From NCBI RefSeq assembly GCF_000002985.6, contig NC_003283.11:5580001-5644000 (forward strand): DNA of 64,000 nucleotides. The letters are read 5' to 3'. Positions 5,039 to 61,590 of this stretch are shown piece after piece (the stretch's first letter is position 1; every line of letters begins with the position of its first letter). The position numbers and the translations under genes are program-made. The notes below the pieces were generated by a model. The model did no database searches. It saw only the letters and a program-made list of their open reading frames with translations, and was not told where the DNA came from. The DNA is from Caenorhabditis elegans (lineage: Eukaryota; Nematoda; Chromadorea; Rhabditida; Rhabditidae).

Positions 5039-8000
5039 TGAAACACCGTACCTAATTAGGCAATTTACCAGTAGTTCATATTCATTCTCGGGAGTACGCA
5101 ATACCACACGCTCATTGAACTTTGAGAAAGGCGATTTGAAATCGAAATTTATATGTTTTCAAACTATTTTCTTCATGAAGTATGGTACTTAATATATATG
5201 TCTTGATATTGCTACTTTATGGTTTGAGTGAGTTTTTAAAAAGTTTTGGATTTGAAATCTTTTTTTCTACCAAATTTTTTCTGTCCTTTTTTATTTAAAA
5301 AATCATGAAAATTTGTTAATGGTCGCTCTTGAGGTTATTCAAAATTTAAAATTTAATTTTTGGGATTTTAGAAAAATCGCTCATTTTGTAGGGCTTTTTC
5401 TATATTGAAAATTGGAACACGGATTAGAACCATTTTGCGTCTAAAATGTAAAAATGCAAAGTGCGGCACAGAAAAATAGGTGTGGTTTAGAGACAAAAGC
5501 GCGGTAATTCAAATCAAAAGTTTAGCTAGATATGACCTTCAAATTAATTCAGATACCAGTTTTGCTTGTCACTCCCTGAGCTCTCAGTACAGTCAATTTT
5601 CATCTCGAAGAGCCAGAGCTCGCGGAGTCTCATCCCTACAACGTACAAGTGAAAATGCAATTGACTTTGACTACCTCACATCAAATCTACCGTACTCCGC
5701 AACTGAAATTCGTTCGATCTCATCTCTTACCCCATTTCCTGTGAAACCAATGCTAACTGTATCCGACGGTGGAAAGCTTACATGTCATTTTGACGATGAT
5801 ATGGAATATTGTGGATGGCATAATGCAGCGGACACTGACATGAAGTTTTTTTTTTCAATTTTAATAGAATTTCAAAAATTACTATTTTTAGATTCTGGAA
5901 ATCAAAGTTAAACTCAGATAATAATTTTGACTCGCAAAGATTTGACTCTGGAAGTCCATTGAGTTTCACACCAGGTAAGAGGAACAAATTGTTTCTAAAA
6001 ATCAATTGAAACATTCCAAAAAGATTGAAAAATTTGAAAATTTCAGCAAAAGTTTTGGTTGATGTTAGTTTGAAAATTCTGTATTTAAAAAAAATCCTAA
6101 CGCTCATATGATGCCAAAATGGCCAAATATCATAGTAAAACGTTCCAAAAAATTTTTTAGATTTTTTCATTGACATGCAAAAAGTGGCAATCACTTAGAT
6201 TTTGCCACTTTTTGAGAAAACTATATCGCTGTCGCATGTCCGAACCCCTACAATGTTTGAATAGGAGTATTTTTAATTGGCTCATTTTCCTATTTTCAAA
6301 AAATCATTTAAACATTAAAAAAAAAATTTATTATTAACTTTTTAATTGGGTAAAAGTACCAGTTGATTTCAACTAATCATAACAATTCAGACAACAATTT
6401 TCTACTGGCTGGCGGCGAACCAATGATTCTTCCACAGACTGCTGCAATTGAAATGGAAATTCCATGTCAATATGGAGATGCTGAAGTGAAATTCGAGTAG
6501 GTCTTCGAGTTCACAGCTACGTTGTAAAATCTCGGATCTTTTAATTTAATTTAATTTAATCTTGATAAAGTTAACTTTTAACTAATTCATCTGAAAAAGC
6601 AAATAAGAAATAGGATTCTAGTTTTTCGATTTTTAATCCCTATTATATTCTCATTAGAAAACAAAACTTTGAAATTTATGTATCTACATTTGGTAAGTTT
6701 CATCACGGATACCATACTTTTTTCAATAAAAATTATTTTTTGAAACCGATAAATCGGAAACTTTATGGTTTTTTAACCGAGATTGCATATCCAATTTAGC
6801 TTTTGACCCTTGCAAGATTCATTCTGAAAAACAGAAAAACAGTGATAAAGTGTTCATATCATGAAAGGGTTAACTTTTAACTAGATTTTCCAAAAAAAAA
6901 CTAACAGAAACCAATTTTAAATCCTTATTGAATTCTCGTTTCAAAAAACCAAAAACAACGGTCAAGTTGGTGTCGATGGGAAGGGTTTGTATTCTGTTAG
7001 GAACACGGGTTTGGCATCACAAGGACACCGGGCTCTCCTGCAAGCAGAAGAATGACTGGGTAACCCATCAACTCCGGACCGATGTGAGAGAATGGAGAAT
7101 CGCAGTTGTTTATATACCCGTTCACGGCCGAGCGGCAAACATGTTCGGGTGAAAGTAAGATATTTTTTCTTGTTACGAAATTTGTCACAATTGCAATCGC
7201 TAGCTGTCTCTCTGCATTTCACATGAACATGTCTGCCACTCGGCCGTGAGCGGGTATATAAGCAACGCCAATTCTTCATTCTCTCACATCGGTCCGGAGT
7301 TGATGGGTTACCAGATTAATTCTTCTGCTTGCAGGAGAGCCCGGTGTCCTTGTGATGCCAAACCCGTGTTCCTAACAGAATACAACCCCTTCCCATCGAC
7401 ACCAACTTGACCGTTGTTTTGTTCTTTTTCAACGATATTCTAACCGGAAAGATGAACTGATTTCATTTGGTTTCTCAGAAGGACTAGAATAATTTGTAAA
7501 CTATAACTTTCTCATGATCTATGAAATTTACCACTATAGTACATAGGTTTCTCTGATTGCAAGGAAGGAATTATTTGTGCATTTCACAAGACAAGATTAA
7601 ACCTGAGGTTTTGAATTTGGAATTTTATAAGGTTTCACATTCCAAATTGCTCAAAAAGGTTGATAATGAATAAAATGAAGATATGTGGTGTCAGAATGTC
7701 CCATGTCGGTTTGATCTTCGAAAAGTTGACACATACATCCTAACCAATTTTGCATGGTTAAGAGCGTGCTGACGTCACATTTTTCTGGGAAAAAATTCCC
7801 GCATTTTTTTGTAGACCAAGCTGATATGGGACAGCCTGACACCACGTGTGAAGATTGTTCACCTAGTTTGGCGGTTTCCCAAAGTCACGATTAGTGTCGA
7901 AACTAAAACGAAACATTTCGGTTGATTACGAAAAGTAACACCCGCAAGATGCAATAATCATCTTGATCCAATGATCCGTGATCAGACAGATCCGTTTGAA

Positions 8001-11000
8001 CTATCTCGTAGTTTCTCAGATTGTGTCGGCCGCTTCATTACTTATTTATACATAAAGACCATAAATTCTCAATATCTTATCATCGGTCCGGTGTTGATGG
8101 GTTATTATCCTGTGGTGCTTGTCGTCGCTGATCACATTCACCGTCCTCTACACATCATCACAAATTTGACCGATGTTTTGAATTTTTCACAAAGTGTTAT
8201 AAGTTTTATACCGTATTTCCTCTATTACAGGGTGGGCCAAAAGTATGGTAACACGTTTGCAGCTCTATAACTTTACTAGTGGAGAGAGTTATTACATCAA
8301 TTTGTACAAGTTTTGTTCTCCATAAAATACTTACCAGATGAACGTTTTGAATTTTCAAAATATTCCCATCCGCATCGCTGCAGGCCTTCAGAACTTTTGA
8401 GATCACGACCTTATGGCACGCAAGTCGGCATTCTGCGGGATTTCTACTTTTTTCTCGAGGAATCCATCAAGTGTCTTACAAGTTTTTATAGTTCAAAGAA
8501 TGCTCTTGGTCTAGAGATTCTTTAAAAACAAAAATCCAAATAATTTCTATCACGGTATTTCTGTCATGGACTGCGGCAGTAGGTTAAGTCTTGAATGGCA
8601 TAGTCGCCAGAAAGATGGATGTGAGCGGCGAGTAGCAGTATGCAGAAAAATTCATTTTAGTATTTTTCGAGACGTTTTGACCTGACTTTCCAGAATTTTT
8701 TTAGAAAATTGAGCTCGGATGATTTTGTGGGTCGTTACGCCTTGCGAAACCAAAAAAACTGAGTAAATTTCGCAAAGTTGAATTCATGAAATATTCTAAG
8801 GTTCTTGCTAGGCGCCAGTGTCGACACAGAAAATTTTTATATGCTACAAAAACAATCAAAAACGCTTCTTCACTTCTTTAACTTTAAATTTAGCATAAAA
8901 ATCATACATCTGAAAATTATTGGCGTGCGTGGGAGGTGTGTTTGTGTGGGAAGTGCCGCGTGCCAAATTACCGTTTTTTCGAAAGGGTTCGCCAAATTTT
9001 CGAGGTGATAAAGATCGCACCTTATTGGGAAACATTACAAATTTTGAGTCAAATTGAAGGAAATTTATTCAGCTATCAGTATTCGATAGAAGAATGTACG
9101 TATGACGTGGCAGTCGCGCGAAAAGCTCATGTAAAAGAGCGCTTCATGTGTTACCATACTTTTGGCCCACCCTGTAGTATGTAAGGCATGCAAAACTAAT
9201 TTTCGGACGCCTAATTCGATGCAAAATTAATGAAGATGCAAAACTAATAGAGAGTGCAAAACTAATATTCGAACAGGGTTTTCTCATGTTTTCCATTAAG
9301 TTATGGCATAATATCATCAATTTCAGTAACAACTTATGAACCAAAAAGAACGAATTTTACGACTGATACGCGAAAATTGTCCGAGTTGTACTCATATTAT
9401 GCCAATTTTGAATTGTTATGCCAAGTCTGTAAAAATTTTCCTGATTTGTAGAAAGATTTTATAATGCAAATTTTGAATTCCAAAAAATAGGGAACAAATG
9501 AAGGGGTGCAAAACTAATTTTCGATTAGTGATTTTTGATGCAAAACTAATAGAGGCGCCTTACTAATAAAATACGGTATATGAATTTCACTGGGGTAGAT
9601 GCATTATGAATAAGAAAATTTTTAAACATATATACCTGCACAAGTTTAAAGATGTCTCATAAAACACTAGAAGTTCTCGAAAGTAATTATATTTTTTGCT
9701 CTATCATTCTCTGACAGGGTTCGTATAAATATACCGAGTTGTAAATTCCAAATCACCTAACCTGCATTAATGATCGTAAAATGCCAGCTTTCTTTTAAAA
9801 AATACCTATCAAAGATTTACCAAAAGCTGAAAAAATACCTTCTCAAAAATTATGACACGTTTAGCCTTTTCGCTATACAAGACATTTAGAATGCCTTCAT
9901 AATTTCTCATCTCTTCAGTTTCTGGACCAACACTCTGAACGTACTTGTTCGCTACTGCATATCAAAAGTTGCTGCCGATTTCACTCAATGCCAAATCATT
10001 CCACGTGCTTCTAACCCAATTAACTTTTCCATTCCAACTACTGCCGATGGGTTGAAAGTTCGCATAGAAGTTACGAATATTGATCCAGATTCAATTGCTT
10101 TAATTGACAATTTGCATTATAATGGACAAATTTGTGAATTGGTAGATTTAAAATAACATCAATTAATTTTTGTTTTTATTTTCAGGTTGATGAAGCCATT
10201 GAACAGTCAGTTGAACCATTTCCAGAGGATACAAACTCATCGTCAACTGTACCGTCGTTGATAACTGGAGATCCATTGCCAACTGATCCAACCATTCAGA
10301 AATTCTTTGAAGAAGATGGTAATGGGTTGGAAGATAATGATGCATCTTCTGCTATTACGGTACAGGTAAAAACTCGTGATATTAATAGAAGTCAAGGTGC
10401 AAGCGCGCTCCGAGGCCAAATAAAAACGATCCGCCCCTAAAGCTTGGGTCTCGCTAGGTATTGGAGAAAAACCGTAAATTGGAACGGTTTTCATTATTTG
10501 TTGCATTGTTTCCGTTGTTTTTAGGTTGCAAATAATATTTAAAATGCATGCAAATTACAAGAAAAAGTGAACAAAACAAATAATTTGATAAATAATTGTT
10601 TTTCCTTAAATTTGGCATTGCACATTGTCATTTCAAAATCAAAGAAAATAATGGAAAAGATACCAAAAATTAAAAAAAAAAAGATTAAAAACGTTTGAAC
10701 TCACTGTTTTGCTGTCAATACCTACCGAGACCAAACGTTTGGAGGCGGAGCGTTTTCAATTGGCTTTCAAGCGCGCTTGCGCCGCTATTTAAAAATACAC
10801 ATTTTTTGTGACCCTATAATATTTTAAATATTTTAACATTAAAATTGTTTCAGAAAATTACCTCTACAGCTTCTTCTATCTTAGAGTCATCTCAAGTAAA
10901 CGTAAAAGAGCTCTCGTCCTGCTCAGCACTGACTTGCACTTTCAACGACGGAGATTCGTGCTTTTTTGGATTAAGTGGAGTTGGCAGCACGTAAATTTCC

Positions 11001-11603
11001 ATTCATACCTTACAACTTGAACCATAATTTCAATTTCAGTGCTGCATGGAGTCTCAGTGATCGTCTCGTTGGAAATAGACATACAGGAATTCAGAGAGTT
11101 AACCTAGATGATCAATCTAAAAGTTAAAATTTAAAACTCTAATCATCAAACTTTTTTATTTTAATTTTTCAGTTGGGTTTGCATATGTCGGCAGTGATTC
11201 CAAATCTGAATCGGAGAATATATTTGTCGCCGAATCGCCGAAATTCTCTCTTTCTCATGATAGTTACTTGATATTTGATGTCTACATACGTTCGGTTTCT
11301 CCAAAACTCAAGGTAATATAATGACTCATTTAAACATTTGAAGTAACTCTATCAGGTATGCATCGATAATTTTGAAAACTGTCCCTACAATTCGCCACAA
11401 CTACGAAAAGATGCGTTTTGGAGAGGCGAACAGAAATTGATTTTGAAGGAAGGATCTAGAAAGGTTAAAAATTTTTTTAATATTTTGAAAAATTCTTTTT
11501 CTGGTTTCAGATATTTTTCGTTGCTGAAAACGTCAAGAAGCATCAATTTCTGGCAATTGATAATATCAGATTGGAAGGCAAAGACGGAGCCAGTTTGTGT
11601 TAG
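5039..11603 (+). CDS. MAM-domain protein, probably extracellular (5' end uncertain)
   Basis: Ten exons join in phase: 5553-5844, 5892-5974, 6391-6496, 9919-10141, 10186-10365, 10854-10990, 11040-11122, 11173-11312, 11356-11463 and 11511-11603, about 481 residues. A phase-compatible upstream exon, 5039 to 5184 (or 5152), is likely; no signal peptide or certain ATG was found. Two MAM modules (extracellular adhesion folds) are visible. The first opens with LTCHFDDDMEYCGW and ends IALIDNLHYNGQICE. The second opens with LTCTFNDGDSCFFGLS and ends FLAIDNIRLEGKDG. An acidic linker rich in Ser, Thr and Pro separates them. The hydrophobic-aromatic DNIRL ending and paired cysteines are classic MAM features. 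The intron at 6497-9918 is very large and holds ncRNA genes and transposons. A cell-surface or matrix role is inferred from the domains only. Confidence 0.8.
6545..6960. repeat. Diverged direct repeat flanking the ncRNA cluster
   Basis: About 6560-6670 and 6850-6950 resemble each other: both carry a GTTAACTTTTAACTA block followed, after some tens of bases, by a TTTTAATCC block and a run ending in TTCTC-T-TTAGAAAAC or TTTCAAAAAACC. The second copy directly precedes the left ncRNA arm. This suggests duplication of the flank together with the RNA gene. Confidence 0.35.
6952..7085 (-). ncRNA. Y RNA / stem-bulge RNA-like gene, copy 1
   Basis: Reading leftward from 7085, the RNA begins CATCGGTCCGGAGTTGATGG. 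The GGTCCG-bulge-GTTGATGGGTTA segment closely resembles the conserved lower stem of Y RNAs (human hY RNAs carry GGTCCGA followed by a GTGAGTTAT-like segment). The 3' end has CCCATCGAC, which pairs with GTTGATGGG over nine pairs, then TTGACCG, which pairs with CGGTC, then a T run suited to RNA polymerase III termination. A TATATA box lies at about 7111-7116, 25-30 bases before the start. Y RNAs bind the Ro60 protein (ROP-1 in worms) or act in DNA replication in other animals. This copy is nearly identical to copy 2 and faces away from it. Confidence 0.7.
7086..7286. promoter_or_regulatory. Shared divergent promoter of two Y RNA-like genes
   Basis: This roughly 200-bp spacer is itself symmetric. 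Each side has a TATATA box (7111-7116 on the minus side, 7254-7260 on the plus side) preceded by a CGGCCGTGA-type block. That arrangement fits a class 3 RNA polymerase III promoter, with a proximal sequence element followed by TATA. The third RNA copy at 8.1 kb also has GTCGGCCGCTTC followed by TTATTTATA at a similar spacing, which supports the assignment. Confidence 0.55.
7287..7420 (+). ncRNA. Y RNA / stem-bulge RNA-like gene, copy 2
   Basis: Mirror copy of copy 1. It starts CATCGGTCCGGAGTTGATGG at 7287, has the complementary CCCATCGAC segment near 7392, a closing TTGACCG at 7407-7413, and then TTGTTTTG. The transcript would be about 130 nt with a long terminal stem interrupted by the CGG-side bulge. 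The TATA box sits about 30 bases upstream. The two copies form an inverted repeat with arms of roughly 200 bp including the promoters, so they arose by inverted duplication and have stayed nearly identical. Confidence 0.7.
7685..7845. mobile_element. Short nonautonomous DNA element (GTGGTGTCAG family)
   Basis: A 161-bp element with imperfect terminal inverted repeats: GTGGTGTCAGAATGTCCCAT on the left, and ATGGGACAGCCTGACACCAC on the right. The interior contains GCATGGTTAAG-GCTGACGTCAC and TTCCCGCATTTTTTGTAGA. The same interior and ends reappear at about 22077-22131 and 23695-23815, where a hAT-like element has split a second copy. No coding capacity. Confidence 0.7.
8081..8179 (+). ncRNA. Y RNA / stem-bulge RNA-like gene, copy 3 (diverged)
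   Basis: Starts CATCGGTCCGGTGTTGATGG and continues GTTAT, matching the Y RNA-type 5' strand. The 3' end GACCGATG (8168-8175) pairs perfectly with the first eight bases and is followed at once by TTTT. An inner CATCATCAC segment can pair with GTGTTGATG. TTATTTATA lies about 35 bases upstream. Length is about 99 nt. The middle differs strongly from copies 1 and 2 while both stem strands are kept. That pattern of conserved pairing with a changed loop is what an active structured RNA family should show. Confidence 0.7.
8209..9578. mobile_element. TACCGTATTT-ended element split by a mariner-type insertion
   Basis: The left end at 8209 (TACCGTATTTCCTCTATTA) and the right end at 9578 (CTTACTAATAAAATACGGTA) are inverted repeats once the 8228-9174 insertion is removed. 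The interior contains repeated GATGCAAAACTAAT blocks (9193-9550). A complete relative lies at 41187-41572. The family is noncoding. Confidence 0.65.
8228..9174. mobile_element. Mariner/Tc1-type nonautonomous transposon, 947 bp
   Basis: Perfect 27-bp terminal inverted repeats start CAGGGTGGGCCAAAAGTATG and continue GTAACAC, with the mirror sequence ending CCCACCCTG at 9174. Both sides are flanked by TA (8226-8227 and 9175-9176), the target duplication of the Tc1/mariner superfamily. Interior frames on both strands are short and broken and I recognise no transposase motif, so the element is nonautonomous or decayed. It sits inside another repeat element inside an intron. Confidence 0.8.
10398..10790. 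mobile_element. Inverted-repeat element in an intron of the MAM gene
   Basis: The left arm GTGCAAGCGCGCTCCGAGGC, then CGATCCGCCCCTAAAGCTTGG and TCTCGCTAGGTATT, is matched on the right by AATACCTACCGAGACCAAACG, GGAGGCGGAGCG and CTTTCAAGCGCGCTTGC. The interior is AT-rich. A related left end (CGCTCCGCCCCTAAACTTTG, then GTCTCGTTAGGTATTTGG) occurs near 36717-36765. Terminal repeats are degenerate; no coding potential. Confidence 0.55.
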
Positions 11604-60130: not shown

Positions 60131-60134
60131 AAAA

Positions 60135-61590
60135 TGTTGCGGGAAATTCAAATTTTCAGTAAAAAAAATTTTGGCGGGAAATTCAAATTTTCAGTGAAAA
60201 AATTTTTAGCGGGAAATTCAAATTTTCAGTGAAAAAATTTTGGCGGGAAATTCAAATTTTCAGTAAAAAAAATTTTGGCGGGAAGTTCAAATTTTCAGTG
60301 AAAAAATTTTTTGCCGGGAAATTCAAATTTTCAGTGAAAAAAATTTTGGCGGGAAATTCAAATTTTCAGTGAAAAATTTTTGGCGGGAAATTCAAATTTT
60401 CAGTGAAAAAAATTTTAGCGGGAAATTCAAATTTTCAGTGAAAAAAAATTTTGGCGGGAAATTCAAATTTTCAGTGAAAAAAATTTTGGCGGGAAATTCA
60501 AATTTTAAGTGAAAAAAATTTTTGGCGGGAAATTCAAATTTTCAGTGAAAAAAATTTTGGAGGGAAATTCAAATTTTCAGTGAAAAAAAATTTGGCGGGA
60601 AATTCAAATTTTCAGTGAGAAAAAATTTTAGCGGGAAATTCAAATTTTAAGTGAAAAAAATTTTTGGCGGGAAATTCAAATTTTCAGTGAAAAAAATTTT
60701 AGCGGGAAATTCAAATTTTCAGTGAAAAAAAATTTTGGCGGGAAATTCAAATTTTCAGTGAAAAAAATTTTGGCGGGAAATTCAAATTTTAAGTGAAAAA
60801 AATTTTTGGCGGGAAATTCAAATTTTCAGTGAAAAAAATTTTGGAGGGAAATTCAAATTTTCAGTGAAAAAAAATTTGGCGGGAAATTCAAATTTTCAGT
60901 GAGAAAAAATTTTAGCGGGAAATTCAAATTTTAAGTGAAAAAAATTTTTGGCGGGAAATTCAAATTTTCAGTGAAAAAATTTTTAGCGGGAAATTCAAAT
61001 TTTCAGTAAAAAAATTTTGGCGGGAAATTCAAATTTTCAGGGAAAAAATTTGGGCGGGAAATTCAAATTTTCAGTGAAAAAAATTTTGGCGGGAAATTCA
61101 AATTTTCAGTGAAAAAAAATTTGGCGGGAAATTCAAATTTTCAGTGAGAAAAAATTTTAGCGGGAAATTCAAATTTTAAGTGAAAAAATTTTGGCGGGAA
61201 ATTCAAATTTTCAGTGAAAAAAAATTTGGCGGGAAATTCAAATTTTCAGTGAGAAAAAATTTTAGCGGGAAATTCAAATTTTAAGTGAAAAAATTTTGGC
61301 GGGAAATTCAAATTTTCAGTGAAAAAATTTTGTCGGGAAATTCAAATTTTCAGTGAAAAACAATTTTGGCGGGAATTTTCAGTGAAAAAAATTTTGGCGG
61401 GAAATTCAAATTTTCAGTAAAAAAATTTTGGCGGGAAATTCAAATTTTCAGTGAAAAAAAATTTAGCGGGAAATTCAAATTTTCAGTGAAAAAAATTTGG
61501 CGGGAAATTCAAATTTTCAGTGACAAACATTTTGGCGGGAAATTCAAATTTTCAGTGAAAAAAATTTGGCGGAAAATTCCAATTTCTGAG
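60135..61590 (+). repeat. 35-bp satellite array, roughly 40 copies
   Basis: The unit is GGCGGGAAATTCAAATTTTC followed by AGTGAAAAAAATTTT. Copies vary in A-run length, AGTG/GGTG, TTTTC/TTTTA and GGCGGG/AGCGGG/GGAGGG. An eight-unit block of 284 bp starting near 60401 is repeated almost exactly starting near 60685, so the array also has a higher-order repeat. The core TTTTGGCGGGAAA is a consensus-like E2F/DP binding site. Open frames across it are an artefact of the repeat. Confidence 0.9.

Follow-up and report, generated by a model that had tools for sequence, protein, structure and literature searches.

What are the three short segments, each running into a stretch of T, that lie close together at positions 6952-8179 of a 64,000-nucleotide stretch of Caenorhabditis elegans DNA (NC_003283.11, positions 5,580,001 to 5,644,000; hereafter the window, with positions counted from its first base)? 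A first-pass annotation had read them as a local cluster of the Y RNA or stem-bulge RNA (sbRNA) family inside an intron. The evidence described below leaves very little doubt that the segments are the sbRNA genes CeN73-2 (minus strand; copy 1), CeN73-1 (plus strand; copy 2), and CeN72 (plus strand; copy 3), each having its own UM3 promoter and T-run stop. All three are already named genes; the observation is real, it adds no new gene, and it means that three small RNA genes were recognisable from raw sequence alone.

Family match, primers, and fold

In an Rfam scan of the whole window, two matches passed the gathering score (38 bits), and both belong to the nematode small RNA family ceN72-3_ceN74-2 (RF01656; sbRNA): 131.4 bits at 7285-7417 on the plus strand (copy 2) and 127.1 bits at 6955-7086 on the minus strand (copy 1). 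Over the 64-kb window, the RF01656 E-values are 8.6e-29 and 1.2e-27 for the pair of copies 1 and 2, and 0.0016 for copy 3; chance is therefore excluded for all three segments. The covariance search proposed in the first-pass annotation thus placed copies 1 and 2 in the sbRNA family, but fell short of threshold for copy 3 and, with the Y RNA model RF00019, for all three copies, as weighed in the next section.

The primers for quantitative PCR printed for 18 sbRNAs and yrn-1 in PMC8477234 fall on the same segments. Those for CeN72 fit copy 3 at 8079-8177 (plus strand) with 0 mismatches, whereas those for CeN73-1 and CeN73-2 fit copy 2 at 7296-7403 (plus strand) and copy 1 at 6969-7073 (minus strand), respectively, with 1 mismatch each, in the reverse primer. 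Family matches and published primers on all three copies bear out the proposed Y RNA/sbRNA cluster. Measured from CATCGG to the first TTTT, with the 5′ end being approximate, and assigned by RF01656 (sub-threshold in copy 3) and the primers, the genes span 6952-7084 (CeN73-2, minus strand, 133 nt), 7287-7420 (CeN73-1, plus strand, 134 nt), and 8081-8179 (CeN72, plus strand, 99 nt).

The motif CATCGGTCCGG-(A/T)-GTTGATGGGTTA begins at 7084 on the minus strand and at 7287 and 8081 on the plus strand. The 3′ side contains CCCATCGAC and GACCG in copies 1 and 2, the 3′ terminus of copy 3 is GACCGATGTTTT, and all three copies end in TTTT, so that starts and T-run ends stand where they had been placed. 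The predicted fold of each RNA resembles that of vertebrate Y RNAs: the lower stem has a bulged C, and above it come an upper stem and a loop that varies. In copies 1 and 2, the lower stem with the bulged C and a GC-clamped upper stem of ~9 pairs are fully formed, and the upper stem is followed by the loop motif UUACC, the sbRNA motif being given as UUA(U/C)C in PMC4450293. Single-sequence folding yielded a z-score of -2.83 for copy 2 (1 of 200 shuffles at least as stable) and -1.95 for copy 1 (9 of 200). Both stem strands had been said to persist in copy 3; this holds for the lower stem, which is perfect over eight pairs, but not for the upper stem, whose 3′ strand is not intact.

Promoters, expression, and rival readings

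The sbRNA genes are described as having a UM3 promoter, consisting of PSEB and GTATA, and as ending in a run of four T (PMC2527325). For each of the 18 sbRNA genes, counting back from the model start, we took the best TGTCNGCCGC (PSEB-like) at 50-85 bases and the best GTATATAA at 18-50 bases. The spacing from the PSEB-like to the TATA-like box is exactly 24 nt in 18/18 genes; in 500 shuffles of the stretch searched for the PSEB-like box, one common spacing was reached in at most 4 of the 18. By this box search, the UM3-type boxes of CeN73-2 lie at 7110-7141 on the minus strand (PSEB-like, 7132-7141; TATA, 7110-7117), those of CeN73-1 at 7230-7261 on the plus strand (7230-7239 and 7254-7261), and those of CeN72 at 8024-8055 on the plus strand (8024-8033 and a weak TATA-like box at 8048-8055). 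The TATA-like box is GTATATAA in copies 1 and 2, and begins 31 bases ahead of the model start in each of the three copies. A TATA box about 30 bases upstream, as first noted, is accordingly present throughout, weaker in copy 3, and the proposed promoters of the RNA polymerase III type find their counterpart in this UM3 arrangement. Upstream fragments of CeN72 and CeN74-2 were active in a reporter, and in CeN74-2 the PSEB and TATA boxes were partly redundant (PMC2527325). Because each gene has its own UM3 promoter and T-run stop, transcription of the three is probably separate from that of the host gene, with RNA polymerase III as the most likely enzyme.

Expression of all three has been followed by quantitative reverse-transcription PCR (PMC8477234; PMC4450293), and northern blots after heat shock are reported for CeN72 and CeN73-2, second-hand via PMC8477234. 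CeN73-1 rises under oxidative stress (PMC8477234), and CeN73-2 rises after depletion of small nucleolar ribonucleoprotein proteins (PMC2442092) and is among the three lowest-expressed (PMC4450293). Sequencing detected 10/10 known sbRNAs, given without names in PMC3492359. As for function, six of nine tested worm sbRNAs substitute for Y RNA in a replication assay (PMC4450293). CeN72 must be among the six: the active sbRNAs were the ones for which antisense oligonucleotides were made, and CeN72 is listed there. Oligonucleotides against CeN77, CeN135, or CeN74-2 led to embryo arrest (PMC4450293). Because CeN73-1 is inactive in the assay, the replication role may extend neither to CeN73-1 nor to CeN73-2, its near-twin; any role of the latter is putative.

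Several observations weigh against the assignment to sbRNA genes. With RF01656, copy 3 scores 35.4 bits (8079-8176, plus strand; permissive settings), below the gathering score of 38. Its TATA-like box, ATACATAA, is weak and not GTATA; the 3′ strand of its upper stem, CACATCATCAC, leaves four pairs non-standard when it is set in the family register, folding offering instead an alternative upper stem of 3 + 5 pairs flanking a U-U mismatch; its loop motif, UUAUU, is one base off UUA(U/C)C; and its folding is not unusual (z, -1.35; 19 of 200 shuffles at least as stable). It is also the lowest scorer (54.4 bits) of the 18 sbRNAs under model R1, which was built from them in this analysis. Two of the three primer sets carry one mismatch; each of the two reverse primers is printed with one lower-case letter in PMC8477234, presumably a deliberate change. 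RNA polymerase III was inferred rather than tested directly in PMC2527325. Finally, CeN73-1, like CeN76, had no significant activity in the replication assay, and the antisense targets in worms reported in the available part of PMC4450293 exclude CeN72, CeN73-1, and CeN73-2.

If the three were instead canonical Y RNAs, they would serve mainly in RNA quality control, as partners of ROP-1, the Ro60 homologue. We consider this quite improbable. All three do match RF00019 weakly (29.3, 26.1, and 24.9 bits for copies 3, 2, and 1, respectively), and a gel-shift experiment with CeN72 and ROP-1 is on record, second-hand in PMC4726728; however, these scores are all below the gathering score of 38, and, by the same second-hand source, ROP-1 immunoprecipitates contained CeY and 0 of the 18 sbRNAs. 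The ROP-1 pull-down suggested in the first-pass annotation is accordingly ill suited as a check. Searched genome-wide (here and below, 100,286,401 bases in 7 contigs, with the window at C5:5580001-5644000), RF00019 gave no match, the control likewise being without a match. The sub-threshold score, non-standard pairs, weak TATA, unexceptional folding, and last rank under R1 would also fit if copy 3 were no working gene but a pseudogene in decay, a reading that is hardly credible for a locus with published quantitative PCR data (PMC8477234), an upstream fragment active in a reporter (PMC2527325), a place among the six replication-active sbRNAs chosen as antisense targets (PMC4450293), and a PSEB-like box matching in full at the common 24-nt spacing.

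The inverted pair and its host intron

Copies 1 and 2 had been described as divergent, nearly identical products of an inverted duplication, and the alignment agrees on each count. The duplication at 6940-7432 holds CeN73-2 and CeN73-1 head to head, including their promoters, in arms of 114 nt (6940-7053/7319-7432; 95% complementary) and 96 nt (7059-7154/7217-7312; 90% complementary); the innermost arms are separated by 62 nt. Identity is graded: identical, mismatched, and gapped columns number 129, 4, and 2 in the transcribed parts, 62, 14, and 2 in the upstream 77 bases, and 31, 16, and 8 in the downstream 51 bases. This gradient could result from selection on the RNA or from gene conversion. 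Copies 1 and 2 stem from an inverted duplication of gene and promoter together, whereas copy 3 is a paralogue at a greater distance. Elsewhere in the genome, the DNA that matches the pair most strongly is Ce3, which lies beyond the window, 10.6 kb upstream of copy 1.

As RNA, the palindromic pair is predicted to fold at -386 kcal/mol with 221 pairs (shuffled mean, -139.9). It is conceivable, but in our judgement very improbable, that the pair would form a ~220-bp intronic hairpin in the host pre-mRNA, joining sense and antisense sbRNA, which would be edited or diced and would tune CeN73 levels or host splicing. Matches to the plant microRNA families MIR6027 (41.1 bits) and MIR6462 (34 bits) at 7112-7261 are far under the gathering scores of 95 and 96, respectively; they were rejected, and arise because of the palindrome.

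All three genes lie, as first proposed, in one predicted intron of the host gene (6497-9918, plus strand, 3,422 bp), which has GT...AG ends and is flanked by exons 6391-6496 and 9919-10139 that join in one open frame. The MAM label given to the host gene remained unconfirmed. Among its exons (5738-11463), two segments look MAM-like by eye only; no Pfam MAM match was obtained with seven open-reading-frame pieces (E up to 1) or with two joined-exon segments of 169 and 155 amino acids (E up to 10), and a sequence search of the PDB with the 155-amino-acid segment returned one match, at E 4.4. A genome-wide search with PF00629 gave no match, the control included, and is hence uninformative.

The intron also contains repeats. 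Between CeN73-1 and CeN72, a palindromic dispersed repeat occupies 7680-7850 (arms, 7685-7724/7806-7845); 40 of its 2,090 candidate places were scored and are 79-100% identical, this count being a lower bound. Starting ~40 bases past the T run of CeN72, a ~950-bp element at 8223-9179 has terminal inverted repeats, whose 49-nt arms are 82% complementary. Its best 40 genomic matches, itself included and again a lower bound, are 92-100% identical, 38 of the 40 covering the full span. We take it to resemble a non-autonomous DNA transposon of the mariner type. Elsewhere in the window, 60131-61585 is a tandem array of a 35-bp unit (~41.7 copies; 91% matches).

The sbRNA family and its relatives

Searched over the genome, RF01656 gave 18 matches, 16 of which exceed the gathering score; the two named sbRNAs missed are CeN72 (C5:5588079-5588176) and Ce2 (37.7 bits; C2:14804797-14804869). 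Primer pairs of PMC8477234 could be placed on 17 of the 18 loci, the best place being used for CeN133, Ce4, and Ce5, whose pairs also fit close relatives with mismatches. The printed forward primer of CeN74-2 is unmapped, its last 18 bases fitting two places, and its reverse primer fits, with 1 mismatch, one place, the RF01656 match at C6:14477544-14477621; by this primer and by elimination, the remaining match is assigned to CeN74-2. The RF01656 genome matches and the published 18 sbRNAs are the same set. For annotators, it may be of use that the gathering score misses two of the 18 and that the promoter boxes are 24 nt apart in all of them.

Across the 18 paralogues, the 19 outer pairs of the family structure make up 342 cells, of which 90.1% are paired, against a mean of 81.7% in shuffles. 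Changes on both sides occur in 9 of the 19 pairs (reached by 2 of 500 shuffles), and the covariation score is 0.338 (shuffles, 0.176; slid partners, no more than 0.124). This test is biased in favour of the structure, which was taken from the family model and tried on related sequences.

The search for further members was limited to a 5′-arm pattern, a promoter pattern, and R1. The 5′-arm pattern, with up to 2 mismatches, occurs at 35 places in the genome (58 for the reversed control), and these include 17 of the named sbRNAs, Ce5 being too mismatched for the pattern. When the other 18 places were scored with R1, one, L038, was above threshold (16.6 bits); since it lies in a repetitive stretch and has no GTATA in the 100 bases upstream, it was taken as chance and rejected as an sbRNA gene. 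The exact promoter-plus-start pattern found 2 genes, both named. Over the window and the named-gene loci, R1 recovered all 18 and a weak match, L010:1719-1813 (C6:14478018-14478112; 13.7 bits; E 0.81), between CeN74-2 and Ce7, which is a probable decayed sbRNA copy because its 3′ arm is clear and its 5′ arm is degraded. Within this limited search, which would overlook genes whose 5′ arm has diverged, no further intact sbRNA gene was found.

In comparison with the named CeN72, CeN73-1, and CeN73-2, the window genes are the same by primer positions, family match, and structure, and no difference was found. Other C. elegans sbRNAs, for example Ce3 (C5:5576220-5576369) and the C6 cluster of CeN74-1, Ce6, CeN74-2, and Ce7, have the same stem frame and 24-nt box spacing, but their loops differ in length and sequence, and the C6 genes share a single strand. 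Tandem sbRNA arrays were present in most of the nematodes studied in PMC5745555, which found no syntenic orthologues. Vertebrate Y RNAs (RF00019), to which the sbRNAs are related, likewise have a lower stem with a bulge, an upper stem, the loop motif (one base off in copy 3), and an end in a T run (PMC4450293), although none of the three reaches the RF00019 threshold. The worm Y RNA, CeY, is encoded by yrn-1 on chromosome IV according to PMC8477234, and the first 31 bases of its printed start occur once in the genome, on C4; C5 is accordingly taken to be chromosome V. CeY is without the sbRNA upper-stem motif, binds ROP-1, and gives no replication support in vitro (PMC4450293); in common with the sbRNAs, it has GGTCCG and a bulged C in the lower stem (PMC8477234).

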